From: Mitsuokella sp. oral taxon 131 str. W9106
GTDB taxonomy: Bacteria > Bacillota > Negativicutes > Selenomonadales > Selenomonadaceae
Assembly (NCBI RefSeq): GCF_000469545.1
Contig: NZ_KI273074.1
Span: forward strand, 1-64,000
Direction of reading: 5' to 3'
Length of the DNA: 64,000 nt
A program made the position numbers and the translations under genes. The notes beneath the pieces are model-generated. The model made no database searches and had not been told where the DNA came from. It saw only the letters and a list, made by a program, of their open reading frames with translations. Below are positions 54,593 to 61,638 of this stretch, one piece after another (position 1 is the first letter of the stretch; every line of letters starts with the position of its first letter).

Positions 54593-56715
54593 AGCAGGTA
54601 CGAATCAAAAAAGGGCATGCTGTTACGGATGTGGTTCCGTCTCCACGGGTAGAGGCGGGGAAGATCTTGGTGCAGGTTGTCAATTCCTGCATTTCGATTG
54701 GCACGGAGCTAAGCGGCGTTCGACGTAGTGCAGTGCCGCTTTGGAAGCGTGCGGTCGAAGAGCCTGAAAATGTAAAAAAGGTGTTCCATATAGTAAAAGA
54801 AAAGGGGATTTCGTATACCAAAGAGATAGTTAAGGAGAAATTAGATACTGGGCTATTAGCAGGCTATTCGGCAGCAGGCATCGTTGTCGGAGTGGGAGCG
54901 GGAGTTCGGGATGTGAAGGTCGGCGAAAGAGTGGCATGCGCCGGCGCGCAGTGCGCCTATCACGCTGAGGTCATCAATGTGCCGCGAAACCTTCTAGTCA
55001 AGATCCCAGATCCTGTTTCCTTTGAGGAAGCAAGCACGGTTACGCTTGGTTCGATCGCTATGCAGGGTGTGCGTCGTGCGCACACGACACTTGGCGAATG
55101 CTTCGTCGTCATTGGACTTGGTGTTATTGGGCAGTTTGCTGTACAGATGCTCAAAGCGAGTGGCTGCAAGGTCATTGTGAGCGACCTGGACCCGCAGCGA
55201 ATTGCCATCGCAAAAGCCCATGGGGCAGACTATGCTATTGCACCAGATGGCGGTTTGGACGTCGAACAGGTAGCGCATCTCACGGATGGAATCGGTGCAG
55301 ATGGCGTGATTATCACGGCAGCAGCAAAGACGGATGCCATCGTGTCGACTGCATTTAAGATGAGCCGCCGCAAGGGGCGCGTCGTCTTGGTCGGCGACGT
55401 AGGGTTGAACTTGAATCGTGCCGATTTTTATGAGAAAGAAATTGATTTCTTTATCTCTACGTCGTATGGCCCGGGGCGTTACGATTCGGCGTATGAGGAA
55501 AAGGGACTCGAATATCCGGTCAGCTATGTTCGTTGGACGGAAAACCGCAATCTGCAGGAGGTACTAAACCTTATCGCAGCGAAAAAGCTGCGTGTCATGG
55601 ATATGGTGTCGAAAGTCTATCCGATAGACGAGGCAGATAGGGCGTACGAAGAATTGAAGACGGCTTCTCCAAGACCCTTGATGGTGCTGCTCGCGTATCC
55701 GCAGAACGAGCGTCTGCCGGATGATACGTTCGTTCAAGTCGGCACGCATCCTGTCGCAGATGGAAAGGTTAAGGTTGCGATCATCGGTGCAGGCGGCTTT
55801 GCGAAGAGCATGCACTTGCCAAACCTCAAAAAATTGGATCGTCTCTATCAGATCCGTGCGATTATGAGCCGTACAGGGACGAATGCGGAGGCGGTCGCAA
55901 GACAGTTTGGCGCAGCGTATGCGACGACGAGTTATGAAAAGGTACTGTCAGATGCTCAGATCGATATGGTGCTGATTGCAACGCGCCATAATCTCCATGC
56001 GCAGATGGTGCTTGCGGCGCTTCGCGCGGGCAAGCATGTTCTCGTGGAAAAACCGCTTGCAATTTCCGAAGAAGAGCTTGAAGAAATGGAACAGTTCTGC
56101 CGTGAAAATCCGAATGCACCGCTCGTCCTTACCGGATTCAATCGAAGGCATTCGCGTTATATGCAGGAAATTGCCAAGCATACGGCGAAGCGGCAGAATC
56201 CGCTCGTGATCCATTACACGATGAATGCCGGTTATATCCCCCTTGACCATTGGGTTCATACCGAGGAAGGTGGAGGACGCAACATAGGGGAAGCTTGTCA
56301 TATTTATGACGTATTCAACTTCTTGACGGGGGCAAAGGCTATCCGTGTCAATGCAGAATCCATACAGCCAGGAAATGGCTATTACAGCGCGAAAGATAAC
56401 TTCGTTGCTACCGTGACGTATGAGGATGGATCCGTTGCCAATTTGATTTACGTTGCAAATGGCAGCAAAGATTATCCGAAAGAAACGATGCAGGTTTTTT
56501 TTGACGGCAAGACGATTACGATGAATGACTACAAATCGATGAAAGGATACGGCGTTTCGCTTGCCCAGATTGAGACCAAGGGAAGCGAAAAGGGGCAGCT
56601 CGAAGAAATCGAAGCCTTTGGGACGGCAATCCAGAAGGGCGATGAAGCGCCGATACCACTTTGGCAGCAGCTTCAGGCCATGCGTATTGCCTATGCGGTG
56701 GAAGCACAAATCTGA
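54589..56715 (+). CDS. Bi-domain oxidoreductase: zinc-type alcohol dehydrogenase fused to Gfo/Idh/MocA
   Basis: The 708-residue protein joins two enzymes. Residues 1-385 form a medium-chain dehydrogenase with GLLAGYSAAGIVVGVGAGVR, the cofactor motif FVVIGLGVIGQFAVQMLKAS and GADGVIITAAAKTDAIV; the usual structural zinc cysteines are mostly absent. Residues from about 394 form a Gfo/Idh/MocA dehydrogenase with VAIIGAGGFAKSMHLPNL and HVLVEKPLAIS. Fused proteins of this kind occur in capsule and exopolysaccharide loci next to heparinase-like and CapK genes. The reaction is unknown; oxidation and reduction of a nucleotide sugar through a keto intermediate is plausible. It overlaps wecC by 4 bases, so the two are translationally coupled and may act in sequence on a uronic acid sugar. 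Confidence 0.9.
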   Translation: MKQVRIKKGHAVTDVVPSPRVEAGKILVQVVNSCISIGTELSGVRRSAVPLWKRAVEEPENVKKVFHIVKEKGISYTKEIVKEKLDTGLLAGYSAAGIVVGVGAGVRDVKVGERVACAGAQCAYHAEVINVPRNLLVKIPDPVSFEEASTVTLGSIAMQGVRRAHTTLGECFVVIGLGVIGQFAVQMLKASGCKVIVSDLDPQRIAIAKAHGADYAIAPDGGLDVEQVAHLTDGIGADGVIITAAAKTDAIVSTAFKMSRRKGRVVLVGDVGLNLNRADFYEKEIDFFISTSYGPGRYDSAYEEKGLEYPVSYVRWTENRNLQEVLNLIAAKKLRVMDMVSKVYPIDEADRAYEELKTASPRPLMVLLAYPQNERLPDDTFVQVGTHPVADGKVKVAIIGAGGFAKSMHLPNLKKLDRLYQIRAIMSRTGTNAEAVARQFGAAYATTSYEKVLSDAQIDMVLIATRHNLHAQMVLAALRAGKHVLVEKPLAISEEELEEMEQFCRENPNAPLVLTGFNRRHSRYMQEIAKHTAKRQNPLVIHYTMNAGYIPLDHWVHTEEGGGRNIGEACHIYDVFNFLTGAKAIRVNAESIQPGNGYYSAKDNFVATVTYEDGSVANLIYVANGSKDYPKETMQVFFDGKTITMNDYKSMKGYGVSLAQIETKGSEKGQLEEIEAFGTAIQKGDEAPIPLWQQLQAMRIAYAVEAQI

Positions 56716-56726
56716 AAGGATCCGCC

Positions 56727-58076
56727 ATGTTGCTAAAAGATACACTTCGTGAGGTTTATCATATATTGCCACAGAGTTGGCGTATGGGACGAGCGTTTCA
56801 TGTCCTTTATCGTGAATATGAGAAACGAATGTTTCAGACTTACGAAAAGCGACGGGAATATCAGATGGATCAGCTCCAGCGTATGATTTCCTATGCTTAT
56901 GCACATACGCGATATTATCGCAATTTGCTTGATGAACGTGGAATTTCGCCGAAGAGCATACAGGATTTTTCGGACATCAAAAAAATTCCTATTTTGACAA
57001 AGGATATCGTGCAGAATCATTTAGCGGAGATGGTTTCGGATGCGATTCCTAGGCAGCAGTTGCAATACGTTACGACAGGCGGTTCGACGGGAAAACCGTT
57101 GGGACTCTATATCACAGCGACAGTAGAGCGGAAACGCTTGGCCTTTACATGGCTGAATTGGAGCTTAATGGGATATCGTATGGGCGATGCTTGTGCCGTC
57201 CTCCGTGGAACCGTCGTAAAGGACGGTTTTTGGTCGTATGACCGAGGAGAAAACTATCTGATTCTTTCCACGTACGATCTGAGAGAGACGAATATTTCGG
57301 AGTATCTTGCGCGTATAAAAGATTTTTCTCCCAAGTTTTTGCGAGCATATCCTTCGGTATTAGATATTCTTGCACGATATATACAAAAACATGGTAAAAT
57401 GCTTTCATGTCTTTCAAGCGTAAAAGGGATTGCTACTTCTTCAGAAGTCTTAACTCCAGAACAAAAAGTTTGGCTGGAGGATATATTTCAGATTCCTATT
57501 TTCGATCAGTATGGCAATTGTGAGCAGGTCGGTTTTTTGGGAATGTGTCCTCATGGCCATTATTATGAGGCAATGGAACATTCGTATTTGGAATATTTGA
57601 CGGAGAATGGAAATGATGCTGTTGGCGGTGAAGTAGGAGAAATTATCGGGACAAGCTTTATCAACGATGCCGTTCCGTTTATTCGATACAAAACGGGAGA
57701 TGAAGTCCTGTTATCGCGTCATCCGCTACAATGCGATTGTGGGATTCATACGCGTTCCATACAACGCATCGAAGGACGAATGGGAGAATCCCTGCAGACG
57801 CACTATGGAAACCTGATTTCGATTACAGCGCTTAATTCGCATAGTGATATTTTCGATCATACGGCACGCATACAGTATTATCAAGATACGCCGGGCATTG
57901 TTGTCTTGAAAATTGTCCGCCGACCGGAATATACCGATCAGGATACAGAAAAGATATATGCTGAATTGAATCAGAAGTTCAAGCAGCAGGTGGACTTGCG
58001 CATCGAGTTCGTGGAGGAAATACCGCTGACTTCTCGCGGCAAATACAAGTATCTTGATCAACGGCTGAAATGGTAA
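56727..58076 (+). CDS. CapK-like phenylacetate-CoA ligase family protein
   Basis: The 449-residue protein has the adenylate-forming fold of the PaaK/CapK group: YVTTGGSTGKPLGLYI (about residues 114-129) as phosphate-binding loop, IATSSEVLTPEQKVWLEDIF, YGNCEQVGFLGMCPHGHYY, RYKTGDEVLL and a C-terminal domain ending LTSRGKYKYLDQ with the conserved Lys. Members in surface-polysaccharide loci are thought to activate a carboxylic acid that is then linked to a sugar, for example an amide on a uronic acid. The ATG at 56727 has GAAAGGA upstream, 11 bases after the preceding stop. The acid it activates is unknown. Confidence 0.88.
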   Translation: MLLKDTLREVYHILPQSWRMGRAFHVLYREYEKRMFQTYEKRREYQMDQLQRMISYAYAHTRYYRNLLDERGISPKSIQDFSDIKKIPILTKDIVQNHLAEMVSDAIPRQQLQYVTTGGSTGKPLGLYITATVERKRLAFTWLNWSLMGYRMGDACAVLRGTVVKDGFWSYDRGENYLILSTYDLRETNISEYLARIKDFSPKFLRAYPSVLDILARYIQKHGKMLSCLSSVKGIATSSEVLTPEQKVWLEDIFQIPIFDQYGNCEQVGFLGMCPHGHYYEAMEHSYLEYLTENGNDAVGGEVGEIIGTSFINDAVPFIRYKTGDEVLLSRHPLQCDCGIHTRSIQRIEGRMGESLQTHYGNLISITALNSHSDIFDHTARIQYYQDTPGIVVLKIVRRPEYTDQDTEKIYAELNQKFKQQVDLRIEFVEEIPLTSRGKYKYLDQRLKW

Positions 58077-58118: not shown

Positions 58119-58478
58119 ATGTTTTATATCGCTATTGAAGACGTTGCGGCAAATGCTTTGATCCAAGCATTGAGCAAGAATGAAAAAAAGAGATTTTTAA
58201 CGTATATGACAATCGAAGCATATGGGAATCGTGTGGTTGAGAAATTGAACGAAGAGAATAAGAAAGCGATTCTTATCTTCTCGCGTAATCGTACTGCAGC
58301 GTTGTATCGAAATTATTCGCATTTTTTTGAGCCATATGAAGAAAATGGACAACGTGGGATTCGATTAAGAGAGGGAATTACCTTAGAGAATTTAATCATT
58401 GCGTTTCAAGGATATTTGGCATTGGATTTACTGAAGGCGTTCATGGATGTTTCAGTAGAGGATAGCGAAGTGGCGTGA
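58119..58478 (+). CDS. Unrecognised 119-residue protein coupled to the HD hydrolase
   Basis: I do not recognise this family. The protein is soluble, mixed helix and strand, rich in Lys, Glu and Asn, with no Cys or His cluster; it contains His once (YSHFF). The sequence begins MFYIAIEDVAANALIQALSK and ends in an acidic tail. AGGAAGGAG precedes the ATG at 58119. The stop overlaps the GTG of the next gene (GTGA), so the two are translationally coupled and probably form a complex or regulator/effector pair. The pair is more AT-rich than the capsule genes on both sides and has no relation to glycan synthesis, which suggests a separately acquired cassette. Confidence 0.85.
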   Translation: MFYIAIEDVAANALIQALSKNEKKRFLTYMTIEAYGNRVVEKLNEENKKAILIFSRNRTAALYRNYSHFFEPYEENGQRGIRLREGITLENLIIAFQGYLALDLLKAFMDVSVEDSEVA

Positions 58479-60148
58479 AAATGGCGGAGAAACGTTTCAA
58501 GGATCCCGTATACGGATATATTTCTGTGGATTTAAACTTTATGGAAATTGTGGATACGTCGGAATTTCAGCGTCTACGTCGTATCATTCAAACGAGCTAT
58601 TCCCCTCTATATTCGTCTGCTATGCATAACCGTTTTGTCCATTCTTTGGGGGTATTTCACTTAGGGAAGATTGCCAGTGAGCAATTGAAGAAGGAGAATC
58701 AAAGCAAGAGTTTCGTAGCATCTGAAGAGATGGAACGAAATGGATATCTGTTTCAATTGGCTTGTTTATTGCATGATGTTGGACATGCCCCCTTTTCGCA
58801 TACAGGTGAGGAGTTTTTTTTGGGCGCGAAAGGGGAATATGAAGACCTTCATAATAGTGTGTCAGATTTAGTTGGGGATGAAATATTTAAAAAGGATATT
58901 CCAACAGATGAGTCAGATGCAGCAGCTCCGCATGAACTGATGAGTGCAATTGTTGCTCTTCGGAATTTTAGTGCATGTTTTGCGACTTCGGAAGAGCGCT
59001 CTTTTTTTGCACGTTGCATTATCGGCTATTGTTATAATGATGATAATGATATTGGTGCACAAATGAAGAATATCTTTATCAATATGTTGAATTCTAAGAT
59101 TATAGATGTTGATAAATTAGATTATTTGATCCGAGATGCGTTTGTTACTGGATTCGATACAATCCATATTGATTATATGAGATTGTTGTCTTCGTTGACT
59201 TTGTATCGAGAGGAGATGACGGAAAAGATTTGTTTGGCGTATGGTAAGTCTGCACTTAGTGTTTTGGAAAATGTCGTATACGCACATGATGCGGAACGCA
59301 AGTGGATTCAATCGCATCCTGTAGTTTTATATGATGGTTATTTGCTTCATGAAATGATTCGATTTTTGAACCAGAAGATTAGTTCGAATACAAAAAAGTT
59401 ATTTTCAGAGAAAACATTGAGTGCAGTGGGAGAGGATTTTGGAGATAGAGGCAGAATTCGCCTGATGAGTGATGATGATATCATATATTTATCCAAAAAT
59501 ATTTATTGGGAAGAATTGGGAGATTTGGGAAAAGAATACTATGCACGAACGGAGCGGAAACATCCTGCATGGAAATCTGAAGCAGAATATAATGCATTGT
59601 TGGCGGATGCCGGCTCAGAACGAGGAAAAACCTTAAATAGCATTCAAACGACAATGGAACATTTGATGTCCTATACAATGGATGCAGAAGCTTTCGGCGG
59701 AAGTTGTTCTATAAACAAGAAGGTTCTTCAACGGCTTAATGAGGAAGTAGATCAAATCGAAAAATTAAAACAGACGGAATCGGTTGATGACAGAACTTAT
59801 AGGGCGCAAAAGAAAAGTAAGTCTGCTATGCGCAAGGTGGTAGAAGTGCTAGCGAACTTTGCAGAACAAAATCGAATTGAGTTTGATTTTGTTATTTTAA
59901 CATCTAAGCAATTTAATAGCGGCTTTGCAAAACATGATTTTGCTGAATTAAGAGTGGCGTTTCCAGCGAAAGAGGAGCCACGGGTCTTTCCGTTTAAGAA
60001 GTTGGAGGTTACATTGGAACCAACGGAGGCAGGACAAGATAGGGCATTTTATTTGTTTTATAAAAGAGGCAAGGGAGGCTTAAAGGATCTAGATACAGCG
60101 GATTTGATACGCAGATTGATTTCTGAGTTCACTCTGTATAGATTATAG
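58475..60148 (+). CDS. SAMHD1-like HD domain hydrolase
   Basis: The 557-residue protein has the HD phosphohydrolase core of the dNTPase/SAMHD1 group: SEFQRLRRIIQTSYSPLYSS, NRFVHSLGV (His56), CLLHDVGHAPFSHTGEE (His100, Asp101), and IIDVDKLDYLIRDAF with the fourth metal Asp near residue 213. These residues are all present, so it should bind a metal and cleave phosphate esters, likely of nucleotides. Residues beyond about 330 include a helical stretch and an unfamiliar C-terminal domain of about 200 residues. The start is GTG 58475, overlapping the preceding stop; ATG 58481 is an alternative. Bacterial dNTPases can act in phage defence by draining nucleotides; whether this pair does so is inference. 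A role in the capsule is unlikely. Confidence 0.88.
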   Translation: MKMAEKRFKDPVYGYISVDLNFMEIVDTSEFQRLRRIIQTSYSPLYSSAMHNRFVHSLGVFHLGKIASEQLKKENQSKSFVASEEMERNGYLFQLACLLHDVGHAPFSHTGEEFFLGAKGEYEDLHNSVSDLVGDEIFKKDIPTDESDAAAPHELMSAIVALRNFSACFATSEERSFFARCIIGYCYNDDNDIGAQMKNIFINMLNSKIIDVDKLDYLIRDAFVTGFDTIHIDYMRLLSSLTLYREEMTEKICLAYGKSALSVLENVVYAHDAERKWIQSHPVVLYDGYLLHEMIRFLNQKISSNTKKLFSEKTLSAVGEDFGDRGRIRLMSDDDIIYLSKNIYWEELGDLGKEYYARTERKHPAWKSEAEYNALLADAGSERGKTLNSIQTTMEHLMSYTMDAEAFGGSCSINKKVLQRLNEEVDQIEKLKQTESVDDRTYRAQKKSKSAMRKVVEVLANFAEQNRIEFDFVILTSKQFNSGFAKHDFAELRVAFPAKEEPRVFPFKKLEVTLEPTEAGQDRAFYLFYKRGKGGLKDLDTADLIRRLISEFTLYRL

Positions 60149-60174: not shown

Positions 60175-61638
60175 ATGCTGCATGATGTATCAGTCAATAT
60201 CAAAAAAGGAATAGAATATCCTCATACAGCACCGTTTCATCCATCGGAAACGTACCCCGAGTGGGGGGGCAAGATGCCTCTTGCACGTGAGGCAAATCCT
60301 GTGTATGGCTTGGTGCGTGACTGCATCCGGCATTTAGGGCTTGATGCGGAACATCAGGAGACGGCAGAGTGGAATCCTTTTGGGGAATTCATCACGCCCG
60401 GTGACCGTGTGCTCATTAAGCCAAATCTAGTGCTTCATTTCAATGGAAGCGGAGCGGATGTGCGTGCCGTTACGACACATGGCTCCGTGATTCGCCCCGT
60501 ACTGGATTATGTCGTTTTGGCGCTCAAGGGAAAGGGGCATATCATCGTAGGCGATGCGCCGCAGGCAAATGGGCATTTTGATGAGATCGTCTCACAGAAT
60601 GGGCTGCGTGAGGTCGTGACGTGGTATCAGGTGCAGGGGATTTCCATAGAGTTGCTAGATTTTCGGAAGAACTGTTATCCCGATGGAACGCGTGGTGGCA
60701 TACGAAAGGATCTGCAGGGGGATCCCAATGGCTATGTGCTCGTCGATTTGGGAGAGCGCAGCTTTTTTGCACAGGAAGCACATTTGGATCGATTGTATGG
60801 CTCGGATTTTGACCGCAGCTTTATCGTCGACAAGCATAAGGAGGGGCATCGTTATCTTTTGTCTGGGGCTGTCCTGCAAGCGGATGTCATCATCAGCATG
60901 CCAAAGCTGAAAACACATCGAAAGACGGGTGTTACCATCAACTGCAAGAATATGGTCGGGGCAAATGGCGACAAGAACTACTTGCCGCATTACCGCGTGG
61001 GCAATGCATCGCAAGGCGGTGATGAATATCCGCCGACGCTTCCCATGATTGTCAAGTTATGCTACCGATGGGATCGGTTTTCAAGAGATTATATTTTGAT
61101 CCGCAATACCGTATCGAGCAGATTGCTGTACCGCATGCTGAACAAGCCGTTTGCTCTTATGCAGAAATTGTATCGGAAATGGACAGGGGCAGAGCTCATG
61201 GCGGGGCATGGTGACTGGTACGGCAATGACACGACATGGCGCATGTGCCTGGATCTCAATCAGATTGTGCTCTTTGCGGATCGGGATGGATGTTTGCACG
61301 ATATACCGCAGCGCAAGTATTTTTGCCTCGTAGATGGAGTCATGGCAGGAGAAGCAGACGGTCCGCTTTCGCCAACGCCGAAGAATGTCGGCTATGCGTC
61401 CTGTGGTGCAGGAAAACCATTTGCCGTGGATTTCGTGGCCATGTATCAAATGGGCTTTGACCCGGCGAAGTTAAAGGTCAATGCGGAAGCGGAGAAGTAT
61501 AGCCTATTTGATTTTCATTCGGATTCTCTGTCGGTGGCCTGCGTAGTGGATGGTGTCCCAACCGATTACGGGCAGGTCAATTTAGGCTTTCGTCCGCAGC
61601 GAAATTGGATTGGGCATATTGAGCGGCAAGAATCGTAA
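60175..61638 (+). CDS. DUF362 domain protein
   Basis: The 487-residue protein belongs to DUF362: DRVLIKPNLVLHFNGSGADV, IVGDAPQANGHFDEIV, VIISMPKLKTHRKTGVTINC with the conserved KNMVGANGDK, and CLVDGVMAGEADGPLSPTP toward the C-terminus. No ferredoxin-type Fe-S cysteines or Tat signal are visible, unlike some relatives. DUF362 genes occur repeatedly in surface-polysaccharide loci beside CapK-like and bi-domain oxidoreductase genes, but their reaction is not known. The ATG at 60175 has GAGGGAGGG upstream. It returns to the higher-GC composition of the glycan genes after the AT-rich pair. Confidence 0.88.
   Translation: MLHDVSVNIKKGIEYPHTAPFHPSETYPEWGGKMPLAREANPVYGLVRDCIRHLGLDAEHQETAEWNPFGEFITPGDRVLIKPNLVLHFNGSGADVRAVTTHGSVIRPVLDYVVLALKGKGHIIVGDAPQANGHFDEIVSQNGLREVVTWYQVQGISIELLDFRKNCYPDGTRGGIRKDLQGDPNGYVLVDLGERSFFAQEAHLDRLYGSDFDRSFIVDKHKEGHRYLLSGAVLQADVIISMPKLKTHRKTGVTINCKNMVGANGDKNYLPHYRVGNASQGGDEYPPTLPMIVKLCYRWDRFSRDYILIRNTVSSRLLYRMLNKPFALMQKLYRKWTGAELMAGHGDWYGNDTTWRMCLDLNQIVLFADRDGCLHDIPQRKYFCLVDGVMAGEADGPLSPTPKNVGYASCGAGKPFAVDFVAMYQMGFDPAKLKVNAEAEKYSLFDFHSDSLSVACVVDGVPTDYGQVNLGFRPQRNWIGHIERQES

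Follow-up and report, generated by a model that had tools for sequence, protein, structure and literature searches.

SAMHD1-type enzymes restrict animal viruses by draining dNTPs, and other immune systems also act by nucleotide depletion. To our knowledge, few regulated nucleotide-draining systems are understood in bacteria. A type II toxin-antitoxin system has a small gene upstream of a larger one, in close linkage; antitoxin genes often come first and overlap the partner gene. The sections of the SAMHD1 study cited here (PMC7311409) give the roles of the metal ligands and catalytic residues, attribute the exclusion of ribonucleotides to steric hindrance by Leu150 and Tyr374, and place Arg366 among the residues holding the dNTP phosphates. 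The role of the guanine regulatory site, AL1, is described in the cited sections for D137 of SAMHD1 and for D34, Q39 and R42 of a fungal relative (PMC7311409, PMC12042053). According to the cited part of the Clover study (PMC12265719), the dGTPase CloA has an HE dyad and is toxic when CloB, its partner, does not restrain it, and CloB is a nucleotidyltransferase of the Pol-beta superfamily that makes p3diT.

Here we describe a pair of genes, S and HD, found in the window, the whole 64,000-nucleotide stretch of Mitsuokella sp. oral taxon 131 str. W9106 that was analysed. No description of this pair was found in the open-licence literature. From what the cited part of its paper describes, Clover is the nearest functional analogue, having two genes that encode an HD-superfamily hydrolase and a regulating partner, a role shown in Clover and one that we infer for S. 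The Clover partner is a nucleotidyltransferase, whereas S has a winged-helix-like model and no match to any nucleotidyltransferase family, and CloA is of the dGTPase type, whereas the best sequence and fold relatives of HD are SAMHD1 and EF1143. With SAMHD1 and the EF1143-type Enterococcus dNTPase (2o6i/3irh/4lrl), HD shares the full-length fold, the metal site, the catalytic histidines and the guanine-site residues; it differs from them in that the equivalents of L150, R366 and Y374 have become T, H and Q, in its small partner gene, and in forming its own long-stem clade. Because both gate residues, L150 and Y374, and also R366 are changed, HD is regarded as a homologue within the SAMHD1/EF1143 family and is not filed as a canonical dNTPase. 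The anti-phage dGTPases (NF041026/NF003701) share the HD superfamily with HD, whose scores of 36.2 and 35.8 bits, over residues 47-113 and 25-113, fall far short of the respective cut-offs, 400 and 383. PADLOC matches to HD were likewise partial (dGTPase, 44.4 bits over residues 25-114; Cas3 and PDC-S68, at most 16 bits), S matched 0 models, and the pair was not matched to a known PADLOC system. Two-gene nucleotide hydrolases and the SAMHD1 fold are already known; the S-type partner and the altered pocket appear to be new.

The gene pair in the window

Both genes lie on the forward strand. S occupies 58119..58478 (119 aa, ATG start, from the ORF list) and HD, a SAMHD1-type HD hydrolase matching PF01966, occupies 58475..60148 (557 aa, GTG start). 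In the sequence, the S stop and the HD start share the 4 bases GTGA at 58475..58478 (+), an overlap that holds if HD starts at GTG 58475; with the alternative ATG at 58481 the gap would be +2. The two genes are likely to be translationally coupled across this overlap. The first-pass annotation had called the pair an AT-rich two-gene cassette, and this was borne out, as both ORFs are present at these coordinates with a GC content of 0.378 for S and 0.385 for HD, compared to 0.544 for the window.

The pair is preceded by a PaaK/adenylate-forming-like gene (56661..58076, +) and followed by a DUF362 gene (60175..61638, +), both recognised from family matches and both outside the unit, and the preceding gene ends just 42 nt before the pair. 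The flanking genes are of glycan type or accessory; besides DUF362, a flippase and a deacetylase match below threshold come after the pair, and the earlier view of the pair as cargo inside a capsule locus is supported. S and HD were both missing from the 2 other genomes of the genus that were searched. HD matches at E 1e-3 were obtained in 7 of 189 genomes of the window's family, and HD was full length in the window only.

In two related genomes (loci L161 and L162) a PaaK-like gene (30% identity) directly adjoins a DUF362 gene (52-53%), the aligned parts lying 7 bases apart. In the 14 kb surrounding the neighbouring PaaK-like and DUF362 genes in genomes G158 and G144, none of the other window capsule genes tried gave a match, which leaves these two genes as the only shared ones. 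Because of this, and because the PaaK-like genes are distant, the comparison shows how the genes are ordered when the pair is missing but does not define an exact empty site. By this comparison, the pair in the window appears as an AT-rich insertion separating two gene types that the two related genomes carry side by side.

Conservation and spread of the pair

Genome contigs were scanned with an HD segment specific to the group, which gave 76 HD loci; in 70 of them S lay upstream of HD and on its strand. The set was drawn from two peptide patterns and misses members that have neither. L091 and L016 are apparently one contig, which means that the L016 locus is among the 76. The six loci that carried no upstream S are cut by contig ends (L051, L058, L086 and L092) or decayed (L084 and L088), and in both decayed copies a short stretch resembling the C-terminus of the L016 S protein is still readable. 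The HD start could be placed in 62 loci, being broken or unclear in the remaining 8 of the 70, and the S-HD gap in these ranged from -20 to +39 nt, with 27 overlapping, 34 at 0-30 nt and 1 above 30 nt. The GTGA overlap noted at first is present in the window if the GTG start is used, and an overlap occurs in 27/62 loci. Since the overlap itself is variable and it is the tight linkage that is conserved, the claim that it implies fixed stoichiometry is not supported. In L073 (7333-10864), about 1.9 kb separates S from the surviving HD frame, possibly through an insertion into the HD gene.

An orthologous pair was found in another class within the phylum (genome G552, locus L016), where the genes have the same order, overlap, and are 38% (S) and 40% (HD) identical to those of the window. 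Searches beyond this genome yielded no added member, either in its class, where G552 itself was the 1 positive among 15 genomes, or in the family of G285 (0/18 genomes). An S-first search of the family of [Clostridium] clostridioforme recovered S at E 1e-6 in 10 of 397 genomes, 6 of them already known from the HD-first loci, and HD adjoined S in 9. The 4 further genomes were G811 and G860, which carry the pair, G884, in which the pair is split across contigs, and G952, with an orphan S. The L058 contig apparently recurs in G884, where S is split over two contigs. The orphan S of G952 is divergent (L180, 5492-5869), the genome has no HD of the paired type, and the product of the gene after it, 156 aa long, has a hydrophobic N-terminus and matches no Pfam family.

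The S profile matched 5 of 398 genomes of the phylum at E 0.01. Two of these are pair carriers, at E 1e-41 or better; the other 3 matches (E 0.007-0.01) lie inside longer frames and look like chance. Exactly one S per genome was present in 27 carrier genomes searched whole. Single-protein scans of genome contigs and of viral contigs found no relative, and in the plasmid and phage collections S gave no match and HD gave distant relatives only.

Over 42 pairs, the distances among S proteins and among HD proteins were correlated with r = 0.88, a value reached in 0 of 2000 permutations. The common descent of linked genes alone yields such a correlation, so it shows joint inheritance and not contact. 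By these genome comparisons S and HD are confirmed as a real, conserved two-gene unit, beyond chance. The first-pass annotation had raised two possible refutations, a partner that never occurs next to the HD gene and an HD protein that is a housekeeping dGTPase; the first fails with S adjoining HD in 70/76 loci, and a housekeeping gene is likewise contradicted by the full-length HD in 1/189 family genomes and by the good S matches in 2/398 phylum genomes.

The pair loci belong mainly to Bacillota (63/76) and, by record titles, 45 belong to Lachnospiraceae; many titles name animal-gut samples. Phylum labels cover Bacillota and seven others, and two loci are unlabelled. In the HD tree a Bacteroidota row lies beside a Lachnospiraceae row with support 100. 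Most hosts are, by title, MAGs or isolates, and some of the cross-phylum placements may be binning errors. The patchy, cross-phylum distribution suggests that the pair has spread horizontally between lineages.

Fold and catalytic centre of the HD protein

The AlphaFold2 model of HD (pLDDT 91) was built on a 51-sequence alignment made up of 49 of 61 complete proteins together with those of the window and of L047. Compared by VIA with human SAMHD1, the model gave Z 31.5 and an rmsd of 3.9 with 397 residues aligned, over the range 3-549. By sequence, the best-scoring solved relatives were the Enterococcus HD protein 2o6i, 2q14, 2hek, and fungal and human SAMHD1.

The catalytic centre is conserved throughout the paired proteins. 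The metal ligand H56 (58640..58642, +; SAMHD1 H167), the HD motif H100-D101 (58772..58777, +; H206-D207) and the metal ligand D213 (59111..59113, +; D311) are each present in 51/51. Of the catalytic histidines spanning H104 to H109 (58784..58801, +; SAMHD1 H210 and H215), H104 is kept in 50/51, the L076 protein having P at the H210 position, and H109 in 51/51. H153 (58931..58933, +; 51/51) is the proposed equivalent of H233 at the second metal, an equivalence drawn from a conserved HE rather than from direct alignment. The AL1 guanine-site residues are also retained, D137 in 49/51 and Q142 and R145 each in 48/51.

The assignment of HD to the SAMHD1-type hydrolase class is well supported by the predicted fold and by these residues. 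It agrees with the first reading of the protein as a SAMHD1-like HD hydrolase, whose metal residues are indeed complete (H167, H206, D207 and D311 equivalents). The C-terminal 200 residues, which had been thought unfamiliar, proved to be part of the SAMHD1-type fold, the model aligning to SAMHD1 between residues 3 and 549.

Substrate pocket and unpaired relatives

Three pocket positions separate the paired proteins from their unpaired relatives. T40 (58592..58594, +) takes the place of SAMHD1 L150, which makes up one half of the 2'-OH steric gate, and this position is T in 50/51 paired proteins compared to L in 19/22 unpaired ones. H271 (59285..59287, +), at the inferred position of the triphosphate contact R366, is H in 46/51 and R in 5/51 paired proteins and R in 22/22 unpaired. 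Q279 (59309..59311, +), at the inferred position of Y374, the other half of the gate, is Q in 50/51 paired and Y in 21/22 unpaired. The L150 position comes from direct profile alignment to human SAMHD1; those of R366 and Y374 were reached via 2o6i and 2q14, in which R and Y lie eight apart, as in SAMHD1 numbering. The unpaired set comprises the 22 of 36 candidate loci that passed a motif and length filter; L011 and L017 were dropped there and are included in the tree. Read by eye, both keep R and Y, with L at the L150 place in L011 and T in L017; unpaired L018, which also keeps R and Y, has an S residue there. Since L017 already has T and L018 has S, the L150 change may predate pairing. Two of the changed positions form the SAMHD1 gate against ribonucleotides, and for that reason the substrate of HD may be other than an ordinary dNTP.

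In the tree, a single branch (support 100, stem 1.43) separates all 51 paired HD proteins from 24 unpaired relatives; this is a quick tree in which long branches are flagged. On this sampling, pairing appears to have arisen once, with the R366 and Y374 changes marking the same clade. The nearest unpaired rows are Fusobacterium vincentii (L011), G285 (L017) and G284 (L018), and no S homologue was found at these three loci. Small ORFs overlap the 5' end of the unpaired HD genes in L017 (1059-2838, 147 aa) and L018 (1086-2808, 155 aa), and a SIR2_2 gene lies just upstream in L017. The two small ORFs are similar neither to S, nor to each other, nor to any Pfam family. These loci are perhaps other small-partner-plus-HD arrangements. 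A 510-aa SAMHD1-like HD gene is apparent cargo in Klebsiella phage Kp4861-1 (L012, 3977-5509), an unannotated record in which the neighbours read by eye as tail fibre and tail genes, and a close relative of it lies on a Klebsiella plasmid (L013, 4965-6497).

The S protein

The AlphaFold2 model of S has a pLDDT of 93, and the predicted elements are a strand at residues 2-5, helices at 6-20, 29-45 and 56-65, a hairpin at 70-83, and helices at 89-96 and 102-110. S is predicted to be a winged-helix-like protein, a call that rests on a best VIA Z of 8.0, to an ORC winged-helix region, and on many winged-helix rows, and that can reflect a common arrangement; ORC/Cdc6 winged-helix regions lead the list, together with forkhead and bacterial regulator domains. 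Foldseek searches of the S model against the PDB gave no match below E 0.001, and the S sequence had no significant match among solved structures. No Pfam or NCBIfam family scored above its cut-off, in keeping with the description of the partner as having no recognised family. Scores for TCTP (13.8 bits) and phrog_12284 (15.4 bits) were set aside as below cut-off or likely chance. A protein of Myoviridae sp. ctqfO1 in BFVD (A0A8S5T2I4, 120 aa) shares the fold of S (E 3e-7, TM 0.74, 25% identity), a hint that phages may carry further S proteins.

The alignment of S comprises 47 sequences. S proteins are mostly acidic, with a median pI of 4.8 (range 4.4-8.5; window S, 5.48). An operator search of 47 upstream regions revealed no shared palindrome and no clearly enriched 7-mer. 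Strong inverted repeats occurred in 6/47 regions, all six different (mean z 0.8), and the commonest 7-mer was present in 17 regions compared to 15 in one shuffled set. The acidity of S and the absence of a common operator in these regions are weak grounds for preferring a role in protein binding or sensing to one in repressing the operon.

Defence context

S is present on two viral contigs, L046 and L047. L047 carries the whole pair, with IetA and IetS beside it (E 2.5e-141 and 4.7e-258) and, by eye, a tRNA-like 3' end about 200 nt behind HD where ARAGORN reports none. In L046, a contig that by eye looks like phage, S follows a DUF2971/PDC-S31 gene and lies right at the contig end. Among the 132 genes nearest the genome pair loci there was one IetS. 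PADLOC models at E 1e-8 were not enriched in these 132 genes (33) compared to 132 control genes (39) from 5 kb or more away (the first gene past 5 kb in 101 cases and the second in 31), a local control that defence islands could reach. Distinct system names among the 25 commonest models numbered 14 near the pair and 12 in the control. The commonest Pfam neighbours were ordinary cell genes, including five EF-Tu. Any tRNA gene was found in 4 of 38 loci scanned, and within 500 nt of the pair in L114 only, so these loci do not mark a tRNA hot spot. The check for homologous pairs beside defence genes, proposed in the first-pass annotation, thus turned up single cases (L047, L046 and the IetS near genome loci), and enrichment was not found. 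An anti-phage function of the pair is plausible; we put a defence or conflict role at close to even odds. Patchy spread across phyla and the occurrence of decayed copies are in keeping with an accessory module for conflict or defence.

Discussion

We interpret the pair as a horizontally spread two-component nucleotide-hydrolase module in which S would bind and control HD and nucleotide depletion would serve defence, and we give this reading a probability of about 0.5, with S-HD contact, regulation, output and purpose as its conjectural parts. HD would act as a SAMHD1-type metal-dependent phosphohydrolase, its catalytic centre and guanine regulatory-site residues kept and its sugar/triphosphate pocket remodelled. 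S would bind HD and set when it is active, as a restraint in the uninfected cell, as a trigger, or as both. Active HD would then drain a nucleotide pool, and replication of the invader or of the cell would stop. Regulation of HD by S is likely but conjectural. The one orphan S, in a genome without a paired-type HD, is a counterpoint to this module reading. The remodelled pocket leaves the HD substrate uncertain. A more specific form, an immune module in which a SAMHD1-fold hydrolase that has lost its 2'-OH gate cleaves ribonucleotides or a nucleotide signal and, unlike Clover, is restrained or triggered by a winged-helix partner, is put forward tentatively and is itself unlikely.

That HD is instead a canonical dNTP triphosphohydrolase, the three pocket changes being neutral, is possible, at somewhat less than even odds. 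Its catalytic and guanine-site residues match SAMHD1, K276, R358 and K367 are invariant in the paired alignment and could stand in for R366, and the unpaired L018 (S) and L017 (T, by eye) differ at the L150 place yet keep R and Y. Against neutrality, the three switched positions are held in 46-50 of 51 paired proteins, whereas 19-22 of 22 unpaired ones have the SAMHD1 letters. A chance meeting of a housekeeping dGTPase and an unrelated ORF is hardly credible, as it is refuted by the upstream-S count, with co-occurrence in 70/76 loci of one search and 9/10 genomes of the other, and HD falls far below the dGTPase family cut-offs.

The remaining alternatives concern what the pair does. We consider it rather doubtful that the pair is a metabolic or stress regulator of nucleotide pools without an immune role. 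The prevalence of ordinary cell genes among its neighbours, the lack of local defence enrichment (33 compared to 39 PADLOC models) and the retained guanine-type allosteric site all fit such a regulator, but the distribution fits it poorly: S is very patchy, in 2/398 genomes of the phylum and 10/397 of one family, rows from different phyla are neighbours in the HD tree, decayed copies occur, and one pair and one further S lie on viral contigs. It is quite improbable that S is chiefly a DNA-binding autorepressor of its operon, in the style of a toxin-antitoxin system, with HD as an effector and no control by contact. A winged-helix-like prediction for S would suit this role, as would the position of its gene, which, like the small gene of a type II toxin-antitoxin system, comes first in tight linkage with the larger one, and overlaps HD in 27/62 loci. 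The upstream regions argue otherwise, their 6/47 inverted repeats being all different and their commonest 7-mer close to the shuffled count, as do the acidity of S (median pI 4.8) and the space of only 42 nt between the pair and the preceding gene in the window.

The regulated module that we favour would tie the SAMHD1 fold, in a widely transferred pair, to a dedicated partner gene, with the residues that select deoxyribonucleotides switched. The pair makes two questions testable, namely what keeps enzymes of this kind safe and if the SAMHD1 fold is able to target other nucleotides. The target nucleotide of HD and any antiviral role are now directly testable on two genes.
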